A stretch of 64,000 bases of DNA from Halomarina litorea (GTDB lineage Archaea > Halobacteriota > Halobacteria > Halobacteriales > Haloarculaceae). Under the pieces are notes generated by a model that saw only the letters and a program-made list of their open reading frames with translations, did no database searches and had not been told where the DNA came from. The stretch is from the NCBI RefSeq assembly GCF_024227715.1, contig NZ_CP100449.1:1-64000 (forward strand), given 5' to 3'. Both the position numbers and the translations under genes were made by a program. Below are positions 9,384 to 59,025 of the stretch, piece after piece. Every line of letters starts with the position of its first letter. The stretch's first letter is position 1.

Positions 9384-10760
9384 CTACGGCGTCCAGTCCG
9401 GACGCTCGCGTTCGACGAACTCGCCGTGGCCGGGATCGCAGACGATTTCGCCGTCGTCCGCGACGACGACGCCGCGGACGAGGGTCGTCTCGACCTTTCC
9501 CCGGACCGTCCGCCCCTCGTAGATGGAGTAGTCCGCCTTCGAGGCGTTGTCCGCGGCCGTTATCGTCTCCTCGGCGTTCGGGTCGAAGATGACGATGTCC
9601 GCGTCGGTCCCCGGGTCGAGCGTCCCCTTCTCCGGGAGGCCGAACGTGGCCGCCGGGTTTCGGCTCATGACTCTCGTGAGGAACTCGTAGGACAGTCCCC
9701 GTTCGTTCACCGCCTCGTCGTGGAACACAGGGAGGCTCCGCTGCAGGCCGTTCGCGCCAAACGGCCCCTCCCACCACTCGCTTCCCTCCTTCGCAGCGCG
9801 CTTCTGTGCGACGTGGTCGGTCGAGACGACGCTCAGGACGCCCCGTTCGAGGTACTCGAAGAGCGCGTCGACGTCGTCGCCCCGGCGGAGGGGCGGTGCG
9901 ATGCGCGGGAGGTTCCCCATCTCCTCGTGGAGGTCACCCGTCAGCGCCGTGTAGTGCGTACACGTCTCGCCGCGAATCAGGCTCCCGTCCTCCCGGTGGC
10001 GCGCCAGCGCCTCGGCGGACTTCCGACAGGAGGTGTGGATGCCGTAGTACTTCGCCCCGAGGTGGCGGGCCATCCGTGCGAGGTCGTCGGCCGCCATGGC
10101 CTCCGCGTAGTCGGGGCGCGACTCGGGGTAGCTCCTCGCCCCGCGCCCCTCGGCTCGGAGTCGCTCGGTCACCGCCTCGCAGACCGAATCGTCCTCGGTG
10201 TGGCCGACACCGACGGCGCCGAGGTCCGCGAGTCGCTCGAGGACGCGGTGGATGTACCCGTTCGAGAGGCCGAACTCGTAGGCCGTGTACATCTTGAACG
10301 AGGTGACGCCCGCGTCGACGACCGCCTCCAGTTCGTCGAAGAGGTCGTCGCCCTCCCTGAGAATCCCCCCGTGGAGTCCGTAGTCGACCAGCGCGCCGGT
10401 GGCTCGCTCCCGCTTTCGCTCGATTCCCTCCACGAGCGTCCCCGCCTCGTCCCACGGGCTCTCCTCGTCCGCGTACGCCTGCCAGGCGAAGTCGATGACC
10501 GTCGTCACGCCCCCCAGCGCCGCCGCCGCCGTCGCCGTCTCGTAACTGTCGACGGAGACGTGGTCGCCGATGTGGACGTGCGGGTCGACGACTCCCGGCA
10601 TGACCACCTTCCCCGTCGCGTCGAGCGTCCGTTCTGCCGCTGGGAGGTGCTCCGGGTCGCCGAGTCCCACGATGGTTCCGTCGTCGACCGCGACCGCTCC
10701 GTCGAACGACCGGGTCCCGGAGACGACCGTCCCGCCCTCGATAACAGTGTCTACGACCAT
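9384..10760 (-). CDS. Cyclic amidohydrolase: allantoinase/hydantoinase/dihydropyrimidinase type
   Basis: A roughly 458-residue binuclear metal amidohydrolase. Visible ligands: HxH in DPHVHIGDH, the carboxylated Lys in SFKMYTAY, His in VGHTEDD, His in GIHTSC and Asp in STDHVAQ. Sequence style is closest to dihydropyrimidinase/hydantoinase. The locus otherwise lacks an allantoinase, so opening the allantoin hydantoin ring is the likely job. Two starts are possible, ATG 10769 or 10760. A TATA-like CTTTTATG centred near 10793 favours the second as a nearly leaderless start. Confidence 0.85.
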   Translation of the reverse strand: MVVDTVIEGGTVVSGTRSFDGAVAVDDGTIVGLGDPEHLPAAERTLDATGKVVMPGVVDPHVHIGDHVSVDSYETATAAAALGGVTTVIDFAWQAYADEESPWDEAGTLVEGIERKRERATGALVDYGLHGGILREGDDLFDELEAVVDAGVTSFKMYTAYEFGLSNGYIHRVLERLADLGAVGVGHTEDDSVCEAVTERLRAEGRGARSYPESRPDYAEAMAADDLARMARHLGAKYYGIHTSCRKSAEALARHREDGSLIRGETCTHYTALTGDLHEEMGNLPRIAPPLRRGDDVDALFEYLERGVLSVVSTDHVAQKRAAKEGSEWWEGPFGANGLQRSLPVFHDEAVNERGLSYEFLTRVMSRNPAATFGLPEKGTLDPGTDADIVIFDPNAEETITAADNASKADYSIYEGRTVRGKVETTLVRGVVVADDGEIVCDPGHGEFVERERPDWTP

Positions 10761-49569: not shown

Positions 49570-50073
49570 CCAAGCGATTTTTCCATGGGTACATCAGCTT
49601 GCTGACAGCGTTTCTGACCCCCTGACAGCGCAGCCGTCGCGGGTCGAAGTTGATGAGACCGCTGTCAAAATAAATGGCGAGTAGTCTTGGCTATACGTTA
49701 CAATAGACATCGACGAAAAGCTGCTTGTTGACGTGCCGTTGTTCGAACGGCACGGAACTGACTCGGCGACTGCATTCCTTCATGGTGTCGCCGAGAAGCA
49801 CGATTGTGAGGACCTTACGCTTCTCACCGATGCCTTCGGCTATCGGACTACCTTCGTTCGATTAGGGCTGAACATCGGGTCGACTGTACAGACCGAAACC
49901 TCATCGAAAGGTGGTTTCACACGTCCAAAATGAAGGTCAATCATTTCCACGATTCGTGGGTGGAGAGTCGGCGGAGCGTCCGTCATTGGCTTGTAGTGTT
50001 CATTCATTACTATAATTTTCAGCGGCCGCATCAATCGCTCGATGGACGAACGCCAGCTCGGGAGGGTAGCTAG
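49570..50073 (+). pseudogene. Degraded IS6-type transposase
   Basis: The forward strand still spells the DDE transposase of a haloarchaeal IS6-like element: PSRVEVDETAVKINGE, an in-frame TAG at 49682-49684 where Trp is expected, SWLYVTIDIDEKLLVDVPLF, RHGTDSATAFLHGVAEKHD, then LLTDAFGYRTTFVRLGLN. A frameshift follows, and TDRNLIERWFHTSKMKV, HFHDSWVESRRSVRHWL and HYYNFQRPHQSLDGRTPA finish it at a TAG at 50071-50073. The N-terminal HTH part is mostly lost. One nonsense codon and at least one frameshift make it dead. Confidence 0.85.
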
Positions 50074-51214: not shown

Positions 51215-52240
51215 ATGAACACCCAAACGACGATGATTACCGACGCTCGCGTGCTCCGTGCCGACTTCGTTCCACGGGACGTCGAGTACCGCGATTCCGA
51301 AGTGGATGCACTCACTGCCGTCCTCGAACCCCTCGTCGACGGCGACCCTTCGGCCCCGGCGATCCTCCTTGGACCCTCGGGCGCAGGCAAGACCTGTATC
51401 TCGCAGTATACGCTCGAACAACTCCGGCAGGCCGTCCTCGACATCGACGTCCAGTACGTGAACTGCTGGCAGAACTACTCCGAGTACCGGGTACTGTATC
51501 GTCTCTTGGAAGGGCTGGGCAAGACCGTCGATATCCACCGACAGTCCACACCGCACGACGAACTGCTCGAACGCCTCCGCCAGTACGACGGCCCACCGTG
51601 TGTGGTCATCCTCGACGAGGCCGACCAACTGGAGGACAAGCGGATGCTCTACCACCTGCACTCGCTGCCGAAGTTCACGCTCGTCCTCGTCGCCAACGAA
51701 GAGTCTGAAATCTTCTCAGGTGCGGACGACCGTGTGACGAGTCGGTTCGTCGGCGCTGAGCGCATCCAGTTCTACCGCTACACGGTCCCGGAACTCATCG
51801 CCATCATGGAGGCGCGCGTCCGGTGGGGCCTCGAACGGGAGGCTGTCGGTGACGAGACGCTCCGGACCGTCGCCGACGTCGCCGCCGGTGATGCCCGCGC
51901 CGCACTGAACATCCTCCGGAACGCAGCTCGCCACGCCCAGCAGAAGGGCGTTGAGCGCATCACACCCGACCTGCTGGAAGCGGCCATCCCCGACGCCCGA
52001 CACGAAGTCCGCCGGAAGAACGTCGATACCCTCACGCCGCATCAGCGCGCGCTGTTCGAACTCGTCGACGAACGCGGTGAGGTCGCTCCCTCAGATCTCT
52101 ATCGCGAGTACCGCGAGCGCGTCGACTCACCGAAGGCCGACCGAACGGTGCGAAACTACCTCCAGAAGCTCGCACGGTACAACCTGATTCGCATCGAGAG
52201 GACGAGTCGGGATCGTCGGTACTGCCGCGTCGACTACTGA
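51215..52240 (+). CDS. cdc6: Orc1/Cdc6-family replication initiator, small orphan type
   Basis: A 341-residue (335 from the second Met) Orc1/Cdc6 AAA+ protein. Walker A LLGPSGAGKT ends near residue 60, Walker B VVILDEADQLED near 130, and sensor and lid regions follow (ADVAAGDARAALNILRNAA). A C-terminal winged helix occupies the last 80 residues (LTPHQRALFELVDERGEVAP). The TATA-like GGTATATAC at about 51199-51206 is only 12 bases from the ATG at 51215 but about 30 from the ATG at 51233 (MITDARV), so the second is the better leaderless start. No origin repeats are seen nearby. Confidence 0.92.
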   Translation: MNTQTTMITDARVLRADFVPRDVEYRDSEVDALTAVLEPLVDGDPSAPAILLGPSGAGKTCISQYTLEQLRQAVLDIDVQYVNCWQNYSEYRVLYRLLEGLGKTVDIHRQSTPHDELLERLRQYDGPPCVVILDEADQLEDKRMLYHLHSLPKFTLVLVANEESEIFSGADDRVTSRFVGAERIQFYRYTVPELIAIMEARVRWGLEREAVGDETLRTVADVAAGDARAALNILRNAARHAQQKGVERITPDLLEAAIPDARHEVRRKNVDTLTPHQRALFELVDERGEVAPSDLYREYRERVDSPKADRTVRNYLQKLARYNLIRIERTSRDRRYCRVDY

Positions 52241-52302: not shown

Positions 52303-52620
52303 TCAGTCTGTGGCCGGGTCCACGGCCGGCTCCCACGCTTCGTATCCACCGGCCATACTCGCAACCGAGTCGGCATTCCCGTATTTCTCGACGAGTCGCG
52401 CTGCCTGAACGGAGGTCTGTCCGACGTAGCAGTAGACGACGACCTCGTCGGCCCAGTCTCGGTCGACAACCGTCTCCTCGAGTTCCTCGACCGTGACGTG
52501 TTCGGCGGTCGGGAGATGGTTGTCCTCGTACGCGTCGTCGTCACGGATGTCGATCAGGTCGAACGCCGCGTCGCCTTCGATGCGCTCGTGGACCGCGGCA
52601 GGAGTGAGTTCCTCGACCAT
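52303..52620 (-). CDS. Rhodanese-like sulfurtransferase
   Basis: A 105-residue single-domain rhodanese. DLIDIRDDDAYEDNHLPTAEH is the characteristic strand-helix region (quoted in part DLIDIRDDDAYE). The catalytic Cys64 lies in VVVYCYVGQTS, and the terminal SMAGGYEAWE is the family's end motif. The ATG at 52620 overlaps the TusA stop (TGATG); an in-frame GTG lies one codon earlier. It would handle persulfide sulfur delivered by TusA. Confidence 0.93.
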   Translation of the reverse strand: MVEELTPAAVHERIEGDAAFDLIDIRDDDAYEDNHLPTAEHVTVEELEETVVDRDWADEVVVYCYVGQTSVQAARLVEKYGNADSVASMAGGYEAWEPAVDPATD

Positions 52621-52913
52621 CACTGTTTCCGGAGATAGATCCGGTAGGTCGCGTTACCGCTCCGCCAGACACGAGCGTCGGCGTCGTCGCCAACGGCCCG
52701 CGGGACGTTCTCGGTACAGGGCACGTGGTCCGTCTCCTGGACGAGGAGGTCGCCCGCTTCGAGCTGCTGGAGTCCCTTCTTCGCCTCCACTTGCGGATAC
52801 GGACACACCTCGCCCACCATGTCCTGGACGAGGTCGGCGTCCTCGAGGAGTTCTTCGGCCTGTTCGTCGCTCAGTTCATCCGGTGCGTCGGTGACGTCGT
52901 CGATCGATGGCAT
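52620..52913 (-). CDS. TusA-family sulfurtransferase
   Basis: A 97-residue TusA/YedF-like sulfur carrier with an acidic helical extension of about 30 residues before the SirA-like fold. The CPxP motif with the acceptor Cys37 is in GEVCPYPQVEAKKGL. A second Cys appears in HVPCTENVPRA, as in the YedF/YeeD group that works with YeeE transporters. It sits between YeeE and rhodanese in one minus-strand transcript. Confidence 0.92.
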   Translation of the reverse strand: MPSIDDVTDAPDELSDEQAEELLEDADLVQDMVGEVCPYPQVEAKKGLQQLEAGDLLVQETDHVPCTENVPRAVGDDADARVWRSGNATYRIYLRKQ

Positions 52914-52949
52914 TGGTGTCGTGTATGGTGATATCGGTCAGCGAGCGAT

Positions 52950-54122
52950 TCAGATTGCGCAGCCGACTTCGCGGTAGATCCAATGGGTCATCACGTAGAC
53001 CCCGGCGACGATGCCGATGGCCGCGATGAACGAGTGGACCGAGAGTTCGGCGATGCCGGAGTAGATGTTTCCGATGTTGCACCCGGGAGCGAGCCGTGAC
53101 CCTGCGCCCATCAGGAGCCCGCCGACGACGGCGTTCGGGAGTCGTCGACGCTTGAGCATCCGCAGCGAGAAGTCGCCACTCCAGAGGGCAGCCAGTGCCG
53201 CGCCGACGATGACGAAGCCGATCATCACCATGTCGACGGTGAGGCCGACGCCCTGTCCCTGGAACAGTACTGAGCCCCAGTACTCGAAGGACCCCGCATC
53301 GACGCCGACCTGCGAGAGCAGGTAGCCCGTCCAACGGGCCTCGGGACCGGTGACCCCGACGATGGATACCTGCGTAAACCAGACGACGGCCATCGCAGTG
53401 ATGCCCAGCGCGGCGGTTCGCGGGTCCCACGGCCGCTTGCTGGCTGCGATGGGGTTGCTCCACGTCTCGACGAGACCACACAGGTACGCGCTCGTCCCGC
53501 GGGCAAACTGCCGAAGGCCGACGACTGGGGCGAGGAGCGACGTCATCCGGACGGAGGCCGTCGTCGCTCGGTCGTCGGGGTCGACACCGGTCGCCGCTCG
53601 TCCGACCAGCGTCGCGTACACGAGGAGAACGAGGGCGGCGACCCCGATGGCGAGGAGGCCTGCCGGAATCGGCGAGATCGTGAACAGGCTTACGCCTTCA
53701 CCGAACGTCAGGGGGGCGAAGTACGTGCTCTGGAGGGTTGGGAAGGCGATGGTGAACGCGGCGTAGCCCACGCCCATGAACAGGAGGGTAATCCAGAACT
53801 GGAGGTAGCCCTCGCCGGCGCGATACAGCGTCCCGCTGGCACACCCGCCGGCGTAGGTCATCCCGATGCCGAAGATGAACCCGCCGAACAGTCCGGTGAG
53901 CCCCCACCCCGGCGTCCAGAAACCCTGGTAATATCCCAGCTGGTAGGCGATGCCCCAGAAGACCATGGTCAACAGGGTCGCCGCGATGACGCCCTTCGTG
54001 ACTCGGGAGTCCTTGTACGCGAAGAAGTCCCGGAAGGCGTTCACGAAGCAGAACCGGCCCTTCTGGAGAAAGACTCCGAGGCCAGTTCCGACGACCGCTG
54101 CGATGAGGAGCGTCAGTGCCAC
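52950..54122 (-). CDS. YeeE/YedE-family thiosulfate transporter
   Basis: A 390-residue polytopic membrane protein (about ten hydrophobic segments) of the YeeE/YedE (TsuA) family. The conserved cysteines that hand thiosulfate across the membrane are in KGRFCFVNAF, GGCASGTLYRAGEG and APGCNIGNIYSGI. The start is a GTG at 54122, about 28 bases after CTTAAC, so the mRNA is leaderless. With TusA and rhodanese directly downstream it forms a thiosulfate uptake and sulfur-relay unit. Confidence 0.92.
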   Translation of the reverse strand: MALTLLIAAVVGTGLGVFLQKGRFCFVNAFRDFFAYKDSRVTKGVIAATLLTMVFWGIAYQLGYYQGFWTPGWGLTGLFGGFIFGIGMTYAGGCASGTLYRAGEGYLQFWITLLFMGVGYAAFTIAFPTLQSTYFAPLTFGEGVSLFTISPIPAGLLAIGVAALVLLVYATLVGRAATGVDPDDRATTASVRMTSLLAPVVGLRQFARGTSAYLCGLVETWSNPIAASKRPWDPRTAALGITAMAVVWFTQVSIVGVTGPEARWTGYLLSQVGVDAGSFEYWGSVLFQGQGVGLTVDMVMIGFVIVGAALAALWSGDFSLRMLKRRRLPNAVVGGLLMGAGSRLAPGCNIGNIYSGIAELSVHSFIAAIGIVAGVYVMTHWIYREVGCAI

Positions 54123-54485
54123 GTTCTGACCACGGGATTCGCATGGTTAAGTCGGGGCTCTCCGGGTGTCTCTGCACGAACCCGAGACACTGGTGAACTG
54201 CTGCACCGTACGACATAGCGAACTGTGCGACGGTATTCCTCCGATCTCGCGAGCCGCTCGACACACGAGATACAGGCAAATATTGCAGAGAGTGGCTGTG
54301 CTACTCATCAGTTACGTGCCCGAGTGGCTCTGACTTCTGGCAACGAATCTGGCAACCAGATTCACTCAGCTGTTCGTGGATACCCAGGGGTCGCTGAAAC
54401 CACTGAAATCGCTGGTTTCGTCCGATGTGGTACATCTGGCACGGACCCGGTTCGCGTTATGACGATATGATGAGATTCGAGAGAT
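54123..54485. other. Divergent intergenic region with hairpins
   Basis: No gene is recognised in 363 bases between the transporter and the RecA-like gene. It contains a perfect hairpin, GAATCTGG-CAA-CCAGATTC at 54345-54363, partly built from a direct repeat CTGGCAAC (54337-54344 and 54349-54356). A second weaker one, GAAACCA...TGGTTTC, lies near 54395-54420. Their function is unknown. Confidence 0.45.
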
Positions 54486-55190
54486 ATGCGACCCGACCAC
54501 AGTTCGCTACAGTCGCAGGAGACCAATGCCACCCCGGAGCTGCCATCCCTCCGGCCTGGCGTTCGCCTCCTCGAAGCACCCGACTCGTCCCGTCGGCAAT
54601 CAACCAGTGTCGTCCAGGCGCTCGTCCTCGACCATCTCCTGCTCAACTCAGGGTACGTCGAGTGGGTCGACGCCGGAGGCCACGCCTCGGCGCAGCCGAT
54701 AGCTCGACTCGTCCCGAGCGAGCGATTCCTCGAACGGATCACCGTCGCACGGGCGTTCACGCTCCACCAGCACGCCTCACTCGTCGAGCGATTGGCCGAC
54801 CGCGTCTCCAAACAGACGGCGCTCGTCGTCTGCCCGGCGCTCGACCGACCCTACCGCGAAGAGTGCCGGGATGAAGAGGCTGAGGCACTGCTCCTCCGGG
54901 CAGTCGCCCGCCTCTCGTCGATGGCCCGGAGCCACGACATCCCAGTGCTGGTGACGCGGACTCGTTCAGACGAGTTCGCCGACCCCATCGCGACGGCCGC
55001 CACTGAGTGCATTTCCTACGAGGAGACACGCTACGGGCCGCGGTTCGCCGGCGAGGGCTTCGAGACGCTCGTCTACCCAGTCGGTCATGGTCTACTCCAG
55101 ACGACCATCGCATTCTGGCAACAGATGCTCTCCGACCGGCGGCCACTCTATGCCGAGTCGAGTCAGAGGGCTCCAGCTGTGGTGGGATGA
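54486..55190 (+). CDS. Inactivated RecA/RadA-like protein of the PolB2 operon
   Basis: A 234-residue protein with the layout of a RadA/RecA ATPase core: an N-terminal LLEAPDSSRRQSTSV where a Walker A loop should be (the GK-S/T residues are gone), EWVDAGGHA, RITVARAFTLHQHASL, the Walker B-like ALVVCPALDRPY and VLVTRTRSDEF. So it keeps the fold but not ATP binding. In archaea such inactivated RadA-like genes neighbour PolB2 polymerase genes, an arrangement compared with the bacterial ImuA-ImuB-DnaE2 mutasome. The small gene and PolB2 relic downstream fit that. It is intact here. Confidence 0.7.
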   Translation: MRPDHSSLQSQETNATPELPSLRPGVRLLEAPDSSRRQSTSVVQALVLDHLLLNSGYVEWVDAGGHASAQPIARLVPSERFLERITVARAFTLHQHASLVERLADRVSKQTALVVCPALDRPYREECRDEEAEALLLRAVARLSSMARSHDIPVLVTRTRSDEFADPIATAATECISYEETRYGPRFAGEGFETLVYPVGHGLLQTTIAFWQQMLSDRRPLYAESSQRAPAVVG

Positions 55191-55193
55191 GCG

Positions 55194-55469
55194 ATGGGCC
55201 GCACGAACCCAACCTTCCGGGACCAACTCCGGGAGTACGAGGACTACTGGCAGGCATACCGGCGGGCCCTTCGTCGGCGTGGCCAGCCGCACTTCGACCG
55301 GCTGTTCGAGCACGCTGCCGCTCATGCCGATGCCGCCGGCGCGTTGAACGACAGTGAGCCACTCTATCCAATCTTGGTTTCCATCGCTCTCGAGCACGAA
55401 CGGCGTATCGAGGAATTGGAGGAGCGATTCGACGAGGAAGGGGAGCAAGAGGTCCGGATGCCGCACTAG
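55194..55469 (+). CDS. Small coiled-coil protein of the PolB2 operon (DUF8156-like)
   Basis: A 91-residue highly charged protein starting 3 bases after the RecA-like gene. The middle, HFDRLFEHAAAHADAAG, is helical, and the end, LEHERRIEELEERFDEEG, is a short coiled coil. Related small proteins stand between the RecA-like and polymerase genes in haloarchaea. Its reading frame continues into that of the polymerase: VRMPH is followed by a TAG, and the polymerase's probable ATG lies inside this tail, so the present C-terminus may be altered. Confidence 0.65.
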   Translation: MGRTNPTFRDQLREYEDYWQAYRRALRRRGQPHFDRLFEHAAAHADAAGALNDSEPLYPILVSIALEHERRIEELEERFDEEGEQEVRMPH

Positions 55470-56222
55470 ATTGATTGCCTGGACGATGGTGTCCTCGAGT
55501 GGGAACTCACCCACGATGGAGCCACCGCCCATCACAACCCACTGTACACACCATCGCTGTACGCGAGCACGCCACCGGGAACCGTAGACGAAGCAGCGCT
55601 GCTCGACCTGAACGAGGCCGTCGAAGCGCTCCCACAGGTGGCAGCGACACGACTGACGATGAAGCGCCCCGGGTTCCGGCACGGCGACCAGCCAGTGCTC
55701 CACATCGCCGTCACCGACCTCGATGCTGTCGAGGAGGTGGCGTGGTTCGTTGCACGGCAGGGTCGTCCCGGTGACTACCGGCTGTTCAACGTCGACTTCT
55801 CGCGAGAGTTCCGCTACTGTCTCGAACACGGGCTGAGTGCTTCCCCAAAGCGTGAGCCAACGACGTTGCGACTCACCATCCCGGAGCGTGACGTCGCTGC
55901 TGGCGCGTTGGAGACCGTGGCTATCGACGGTGAGGAGTATCGACAGGCGACCCGTGGGGTCGCCGCCCTGGAACGTGCCGACGACACCGGCCTTCAGGTG
56001 TTCCCTGGGCAGTCCGTCCAGTACGTCGTCGTCGACAGCACGCGTGGACGCGACCGAGTCCGCCTCGTCGACGAAGCCGACGACGGTGAGTACGATGTCG
56101 AATTCTACGAAGGCTTGGCGATTCGAGCGACGGAGAGCATCCTCTCGCCGATGGGGTGGCGAGAGCAGGACATCCGGTCGTCTCTCTCCTCATACCGAGA
56201 CACCTCACTGAGTGCCTATTGA
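55458..56222 (+). pseudogene. PolB2 family-B DNA polymerase, internally deleted
   Basis: Only the two ends of a family-B polymerase remain. From ATG 55458 the frame reads MPH, a TAG (55467-55469), then IDCLDDGVLEWELTHDG, HHNPLYTPSLYAST and RLFNVDFSREFRYCLEHG, which is the N-terminal domain. At about 55930-55945 it jumps in frame to ATRGVAALERADDTGL, PGQSVQYVVVDSTRGRDRV and SILSPMGWREQDIRS, the C-terminal end of the family. The exonuclease, palm and fingers (about 450-500 residues, an estimate from family length) are missing. A GTG at 55638 could still start a 194-residue product. It cannot be a polymerase. Confidence 0.7.
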
Positions 56223-57421: not shown

Positions 57422-57808
57422 TCAGTCCTCGGCGTGCGTGCTCGCCCACTCGATGTACTGAGCGAGTGCGTCTTGCCCCGTCTTGGAGATCGCGTAGTAG
57501 TTGGTGCGGCGGTCGATTGCCCCTTTGTCGACGAATCCCTCCGTGACGAGGGTATCGAGGTTCGGGTACAGTCGACCGTGGGTGATGTCCTTGTTCAGCC
57601 GAGCTTCGAGTTGGTCCTTGATCGTCTGGCCGGACGGCTTCTCGAGGTCGGCGAGCGCGACCAGGAGGTCGCGCTGAAAGCCGGTCAGGTGGTGGAACTC
57701 TCGTTCCGTCTCGGAGACGGTGTCACTGGCACTCTGTGTCGCGGTCTGGCTACTGTTAGCCCCCATAGTGTCTGACGTACTCGAGGAGGTATTGTTACCC
57801 ACAGACAT
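57422..57808 (-). CDS. PadR-family transcriptional regulator
   Basis: A 128-residue PadR-type winged-helix protein. The first 35 residues are a Ser/Thr-rich tail. The domain runs FHHLTGFQRDLLVALADL, KPSGQTIKDQLEARL, THGRLYPNLDTLVTEGFV (the wing-recognition region) and RRTNYYAISKTGQDAL, the family pattern. The ATG at 57808 or one at 57766 could start it. No partner gene is adjacent, so its target is unknown. Confidence 0.88.
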   Translation of the reverse strand: MSVGNNTSSSTSDTMGANSSQTATQSASDTVSETEREFHHLTGFQRDLLVALADLEKPSGQTIKDQLEARLNKDITHGRLYPNLDTLVTEGFVDKGAIDRRTNYYAISKTGQDALAQYIEWASTHAED

Positions 57809-58339: not shown

Positions 58340-59025
58340 TCGGCGCGTTGCTCTCCGACAGCGTGGATCTCCCCGCGCCAGAGCCCTTTTCGCCGTTCGA
58401 ACAACCAGAGTTTGACACGCCCCACGCAGTCATCCACCTCGCGAGCGACTACGGGTCGGTCGTCCTCGCTGCCGAGGTGGCACTACTCGGCCAGAAAGAC
58501 ACACTCAACGGCGTCGACGTGGAGGCGTCCCTCGAAGACGTCTTCGAGCGAGTCGATCGCCGAACGGGCTTCGTCGGCGAGGGCCTGCCTGCTGACCACC
58601 AGGACGTCGATGGCATCCCCGACTCCGATCCCGTCCCGGAGGACGCCCCGTTGTATACGGGATTCAAAACGGGTTTTCAGAAAAACCAGGCCAGCGAGGA
58701 CCGGGTCGCTATCGGGGACGGACCGTTCACCGATGGGACGACCCAGCACATCTCGAAAATCCGGCTCCGGTTGGACGACTGGTACAGCGAGCAAGACCAC
58801 GACGACCGCGTCAGGGAGATGTTCTGTCCCTTCCACGCCGAACAGAACCTCGTTGAGGGGACCGGTGAGAGCCTCGGCGACTCGAGCCGGGTCGACGAGT
58901 GTGCCGAGCTGAACGAATCCGCACGGGAGTACGGCCGCGTTGGTCACTCCAAAAAACGGCGCTCGCCCGTGAGGCCGGCTCACCCATCATTTTGCGGCGG
59001 GACTTCGACTCGATGGACGTCCGCA
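58340..59025 (+). pseudogene. Remnant of a haloarchaeal Dyp-peroxidase-like (DUF7405-type) protein
   Basis: The forward frame from about 58340 reads SVDLPAPEPFSPFEQPEFD, AVIHLASDYGSVVLAAE, RRTGFVGEGLPADHQDVDG, APLYTGFKTGFQKNQASED, HISKIRLRLDDWYSEQDHD and EYGRVGHSKK. It then shifts frame into ALAREAGSPIILRRDFDSMD near 58950 and is lost. This is the middle of a haloarchaeal family usually over 350 residues. The N-terminal third and the C-terminal end (about 90 residues) are missing, and one frameshift is present, so the gene is dead. Confidence 0.6.

Follow-up and report, generated by a model that had tools for sequence, protein, structure and literature searches.

Probable recent pseudogenisation of polB2 in a redundant PolB2 mutasome locus of Halomarina litorea

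The archaeal PolB2 mutasome operon encodes, in the order iRadA-PPB2-PolB2, a RadA-like protein without an ATPase site, a small helical protein (PPB2) with an MGRT N-terminal arm and the residues R3/R9, and a polymerase with palm, fingers and polymerase motifs (Timinskas et al. 2025, PMC11791011). In the published model of the mutasome complex, a loop and a D(K/R) motif of PolB2 contact iRadA and the PPB2 arm, and an enrichment of Orc1/Cdc6 genes near mutasome operons has been published as well. Extra two-gene arCOG07763-arCOG07300 operons, consisting of an intact iRadA and PPB2 without a functional PolB2 and additional to another copy, have already been reported in haloarchaea (Makarova et al. 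2014, PMC4104785).

The stretch analysed here (the window) comprises 64,000 nucleotides (C2:1-64000) of the haloarchaeon Halomarina litorea, whose genome consists of six contigs. The Halomarina loci used for comparison come from H. oriensis, H. halobia and H. rubra, and the intact reference is the 718-aa PolB2 of a congener (G002, locus L020). An earlier note, made from the letters of the sequence, had placed an archaeal mutasome neighbourhood at 54486-56222, and both the neighbourhood and its coordinates are borne out: iRadA and PPB2 are followed by a remnant of polB2 (Table 1). The window shares with the PolB2 mutasome operon the gene order, an iRadA lacking the ATPase site, the MGRT arm of PPB2 and the Orc1/Cdc6 neighbour, but its polymerase is represented by two ends only and is closed by a stop at codon 4. 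Like the two-gene operons, it has iRadA and PPB2 without a functional polymerase while another PolB2 operon exists in the genome; it differs from them in retaining a visible polB2 remnant, from which the route to the pair can be read. It is likely that this is a resident haloarchaeal PolB2 mutasome locus (orc1/cdc6, iRadA, PPB2 and polB2) whose polymerase gene was recently inactivated.

Same-strand Orc1/Cdc6 homologs, 50-69% identical to the copy in the window, precede iRadA in most of the loci scanned, which extends the published enrichment. Genes for rhodanese, TusA-like and YeeE/YedE proteins separate orc1/cdc6 from iRadA in the window; they are absent from this position in H. oriensis (L021), where the gap between the cdc6 and iRadA matches is ~365 bp. 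Further decay near the operon is seen ~2 kb downstream of the polB2 remnant, where a DUF7405 (Tat-signal protein) gene at 58348-58960 is a pseudogene truncated at both ends that continues into unrelated sequence. Just downstream of the PolB2 operon, a PadR-family regulator is present in three Halomarina loci; the window protein is 46% identical to the L020 copy (10294-10608) and 58% identical to the L025 copy (9816-10109), both of which lie within 0.5 kb of polB2. On a larger scale, G+C falls from ~68% to 55-60% between 26000 and 60000, a stretch with acyl-CoA, branched-chain transporter and carboxylase genes that resembles a compositional island of its own.

Table 1 Features of the mutasome locus in the window.
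Feature	Position	Strand	Basis or remark
Orc1/Cdc6 AAA+ protein	51215..52240	+	Pfam Cdc6_lid/AAA; ortholog of the gene that precedes iRadA at most mutasome loci of haloarchaea
Rhodanese, TusA-like and YeeE/YedE sulfur-transport genes	52303..54122	-	Pfam PF00581, PF01206, PF04143
Distal direct repeat TCTGGCAACGAATCTGGCAAC (GGCA-N8-GGCA), candidate operator	54336..54356	+	Conserved in L020
Proximal degenerate repeat GGTACATCTGGCA, before the core promoter region	54429..54441	+	Position as GGMA-N4/N5-GGMA dyads elsewhere
iRadA, RadA/Rad51-fold protein, 234 aa, open reading frame intact	54486..55190	+	Profile and predicted fold
PPB2 (arCOG07300-like), 91 aa, open reading frame intact	55194..55469	+	Alignment of 24 PPB2 proteins
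Former polB2 start ATG CCG CAC TAG; stop at codon 4, doubling as PPB2 stop	55458..55469	+	Alignment with L020
polB2 remnant, N-terminal part: N-terminal domain and start of decayed exonuclease domain	55470..55937	+	L020, NF004418
Deletion junction, 1389 nt (463 codons) gone	55937..55938	.	Alignment with L020
polB2 remnant, C-terminal (thumb-region) part, in frame with the N-terminal part	55938..56222	+	L020, NF004416
PadR-family regulator	57422..57808	-	Pfam PF03551

The first gene of the operon, described in the earlier note as an inactivated RecA-like protein, belongs to the RadA/Rad51 group by both profile and fold. A Pfam match was not found for the iRadA protein, and the NCBIfam RadB/RadA models match it partially; a profile built from 42 iRadA homologs retrieves RadA, RadB and Rad51 (best E 5.7e-10, for RadA), and the predicted structure (pLDDT 81.6) matches the ATPase domains of RadA and DMC1 with E ~1e-11. 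The GK[ST] motif is absent from the translation; thus, the P-loop has been lost, which identifies the protein as iRadA. In PPB2, the MGRT arm and R3/R9 are present, and M1, G2, R3, T7 and R9 are invariant across the aligned family. Both partner genes are open, in agreement with the note, in which they were said to look intact. Its comparison with the bacterial ImuA-ImuB-DnaE2 system captures the common layout, a RecA-like partner and a mutagenic polymerase in one operon. DnaE2 belongs to family C and ImuB is Y-family-like. The window remnant and the complete PolB2 protein of contig C4 (see below) match only type B polymerase models, so this comparison stands as an analogy only; the published comparison for the archaeal operon is with Pol V.

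The polymerase gene carries two lesions. Alignment with the intact L020 gene, which begins ATG CCG TTC AAA, confirms the stop reported at codon 4. A small indel in the tail of the window PPB2 puts PPB2 and polB2 in one frame, so that the same TAG also terminates PPB2, a refinement of the earlier description. Beyond the stop, the N-terminal part of the remnant is 77% identical to L020 PolB2 and matches positions 5-161 of NF004418 (E 4.9e-67), and the C-terminal part (55938-56219) is 65% identical and matches positions 578-650 of NF004416. The remnant thus corresponds to the two ends of these NCBIfam type-B polymerase models, and its parts also fit both ends of a 28-member PolB2 alignment, which excludes the concern that the two ends might be unlike the termini of PolB2. 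The alignment with full-length L020 PolB2 likewise confirms an in-frame internal deletion of the catalytic core. Exactly 1389 nt are missing, corresponding to L020 residues 161-623. Motif A (DFASLYPNI) and motif C (HGIVDS) are lost together with the palm and the fingers helix, as are the iRadA-binding loop FKTMRQLH and the DR motif; in the C4 copy the palm, the fingers and the polymerase motifs are all present. Relative to the intact ortholog, the frame is disrupted and the window polB2 is a pseudogene by this measure. Because the modelled contact loop and D(K/R) motif fall within the deleted region, a translated remnant should bind neither iRadA nor PPB2. A functional short PolB2 was considered and rejected on the loss of the catalytic core and the contact loop; the next in-frame start after the TAG is a GTG at 55638, and in the predicted structure of the remnant, which is of low overall quality (pTM 0.47), the N-terminal polymerase domain is all that can be recognised.

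Although the deletion and the stop are read from assembled sequence, it is very improbable that either is an assembly or sequencing artefact. The two lesions are independent, the deletion is exactly in frame with both ends clean, and the stop codon, which also terminates PPB2, is several base changes away from the ortholog. Moreover, when the deleted 463 residues were searched against the whole genome, the only matches were the C4 PolB2 and the replicative polymerase; the core is missing from the rest of the assembly, and a relocated polymerase core was rejected on the same result. The junction reads GAG/TAT, the left edge in L020 being GEEY and the right edge commonly being REEY in other PolB2 proteins, a pattern suggesting that short repeats at GAG(GAG)TAT probably gave rise to the deletion through slippage or recombination.

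To date the loss, we counted unambiguous changes on the window and L020 branches, with L021 as outgroup. The remnant branch carries 32 changes at codon positions 1+2 and 35 at position 3, compared with 27:37 on the intact L020 branch (Fisher p=0.60); the corresponding ratio for the window iRadA is 28:33 (p=0.86). Relaxed selection on the remnant branch relative to the intact L020 ortholog was not detected, and a neutral 2:1 ratio over the whole branch is rejected (p=0.0017). Together, these results argue that the inactivation is recent on the scale of the divergence from G002, most of the branch having apparently evolved under constraint. After a recent loss, intact partner genes are expected and carry little information on an independent role. 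The retention of the partners without the polymerase, to which the earlier note drew attention, therefore holds as an observation of open genes, while the meaning read into it is weakened by the short time for decay and by the earlier reports of polymerase-less pairs.

The probable explanation, in our view, is that this PolB2 mutasome locus was redundant and that its polB2 recently became a pseudogene. The deletion and the nonsense codon at position 4 would have left a non-functional remnant, while the complete plasmid-type mutasome operon on C4 would keep the function at the level of the genome, redundancy being the presumed permissive cause of the loss. That iRadA and PPB2 are still open and the promoter region recognisable would reflect too little time for visible decay, and the C2 iRadA and PPB2 would be spare subunits at most.

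The second polB2 that the note proposed to look for is indeed in the genome: contig C4 (159 kb) carries a complete operon with a 718-aa PolB2. In Halomarina, a single intact PolB2 is present in each genome that has the operon, and the extra copies are gutted (the copy in the window, genome G000), orphaned (H. rubra G005:C15, iRadA-PPB2 only) or fragmented (G003:C8 and G006:C5). In other genera, however, two or three intact PolB2 operons can coexist in one genome, so redundancy alone does not force loss. With a complete PolB2 in the genome, both partner genes open and the MGRT arm of PPB2 kept, the C2 proteins might instead be kept as functional accessory subunits serving the C4 PolB2 in trans, and other orphan pairs likewise share a genome with another PolB2 (G005, G116 and G033). 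We consider this unlikely, given that C4 encodes its own iRadA and PPB2 and that the C2 and C4 operons fall in different clades of the iRadA tree, their iRadA proteins being 47% identical. Supply in trans is further disfavoured by the modelled iRadA-binding loop of PolB2 before the DR motif, which differs between the two clades (FKTMRQLH in C2-type relatives vs YKPIGVLH in C4).

Polymerase-free pairs are thus already known; what the window contributes is an example that retains a recognisable polB2 remnant. We surveyed 146 family genomes with coordinates from two search tables and a scan of the fetched loci, the counts being approximate owing to wrapped plasmid contigs. Apart from the window, an intact iRadA-PPB2 pair with no PolB2 next to it was found in H. 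rubra (L024), G119 (L060), G116 (L061) and G033 (L062); in G119, PolB2 was found nowhere in the genome. A separate contig scan revealed a further pair in Haladaptatus halobius (L086), with no PolB2 within 6 kb downstream, and at several other loci iRadA is alone or decayed. The recurrence of such pairs at these loci, the intact G119 pair and the previously noted extra two-gene copies are points in favour of a polymerase-independent role of the iRadA-PPB2 pair, for instance as a regulator or decoy limiting the C4 mutasome, and the pairwise dN/dS of iRadA in L060-L062 (0.18-0.22) is the same as in intact loci. Such a role is nevertheless distinctly unlikely. In a quick iRadA tree, many forks of which stay open, the orphans occur at scattered positions and a distinct orphan clade was not seen, and no fused or new domain points to a new role. 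In addition, the orphan pair of H. rubra (L024/L107, G005:C15), which like the window lacks a polymerase and has a complete operon elsewhere in its genome, differs from the window in having no polB2 remnant, in belonging to a different iRadA subclade and in evolving faster. Compared with its polymerase-bearing paralog it has accumulated 111 vs 62 changes in iRadA and 72 vs 20 in PPB2, a two- to fourfold acceleration that points to relaxed constraint.

Taken as a whole, the intact congener ortholog, the C4 operon, the lack of a relocated core, the recent loss, the degraded extra copies in Halomarina, the DUF7405 decay and the fast H. rubra pair give us reasonable confidence in decay of a redundant locus, whereas the dN/dS of L060-L062, which is not raised, and the G119 pair without PolB2 leave room for a role of the pair alone. 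The window would then illustrate one route to polymerase-free iRadA-PPB2 pairs, in which a redundant operon loses its polymerase. Should the pair still be functional, this genome, whose gutted and complete operons belong to different clades, would offer a natural test of whether mutasomes can exchange iRadA and PPB2.

The region upstream of iRadA contains tandem GGMA repeats that may represent an operator. GGMA dyads with N8, N5 and N4 spacing occur upstream of iRadA in 28, 21 and 12 of 63 non-redundant regions, respectively, compared with 1-2 in shuffled controls (1.8 for N8), and their density is ~20-fold higher there than over whole loci (4.9 vs 0.24/kb, redundancy kept). The upstream regions of L020-L154 often have two sites ~80 bp apart, the proximal one adjoining the CACGCC..GCTTAT core promoter; in the proximal repeat of both the window and L020, one half-site is imperfect. 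The repeat core CGGAAAC also occurs in one published haloarchaeal ORB-like element. Purely as a hypothesis, the neighbouring Orc1/Cdc6 might bind these repeats, and the conserved orc1/cdc6 neighbour together with the upstream repeats offers a testable idea of haloarchaeal mutasome control. One could go further and suppose that the mutasome is reducible to a polymerase-free module with its own function, made up of the Orc1/Cdc6 regulator, the GGMA operator, iRadA and PPB2, which supplies or restrains PolB2 on another replicon, the window capturing the moment of polymerase loss; we regard this as quite unlikely. A genome-wide GGMA-repeat regulon is not claimed, the search being dominated by apparently coding sites common to many genomes. 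A perfect 7-bp inverted repeat (GAAACCA-N10-TGGTTTC) lies at 54396-54419 in the iRadA promoter region, with a similar GAAACC..GGTTTC at 49895. Shuffles of the window give no chance match to it with up to three mismatches; it is not conserved in L020 and was set aside as a promoter element.

Elsewhere, an 86-bp duplicate of the polB2 5' end is found behind PPB2 at L141:3507-3596 and L154:7145-7234, followed by extra genes (including an IS605/OrfB-type transposase in L141) and then by a polB2 with a full start, from 7852 and 9040, respectively; these loci may be read as insertions at the polB2 5' end that restored the gene start. Variable cargo of ~1.5-12 kb occupies the gap between PPB2 and PolB2 in L089, L098, L103, L112, L117, L118, L123, L126, L136 and L071, encoding an RNase_H_2 protein, a DUF7342 regulator, a DnaJ protein, transporters and large proteins, and the PolB2 operon looks like an insertion hot spot. 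In a parallel to the polB2 duplicates, 5' fragments of iRadA (~70-85 codons) lie ~2 kb upstream of the full gene in L062, L103, L154 and G088:C3.
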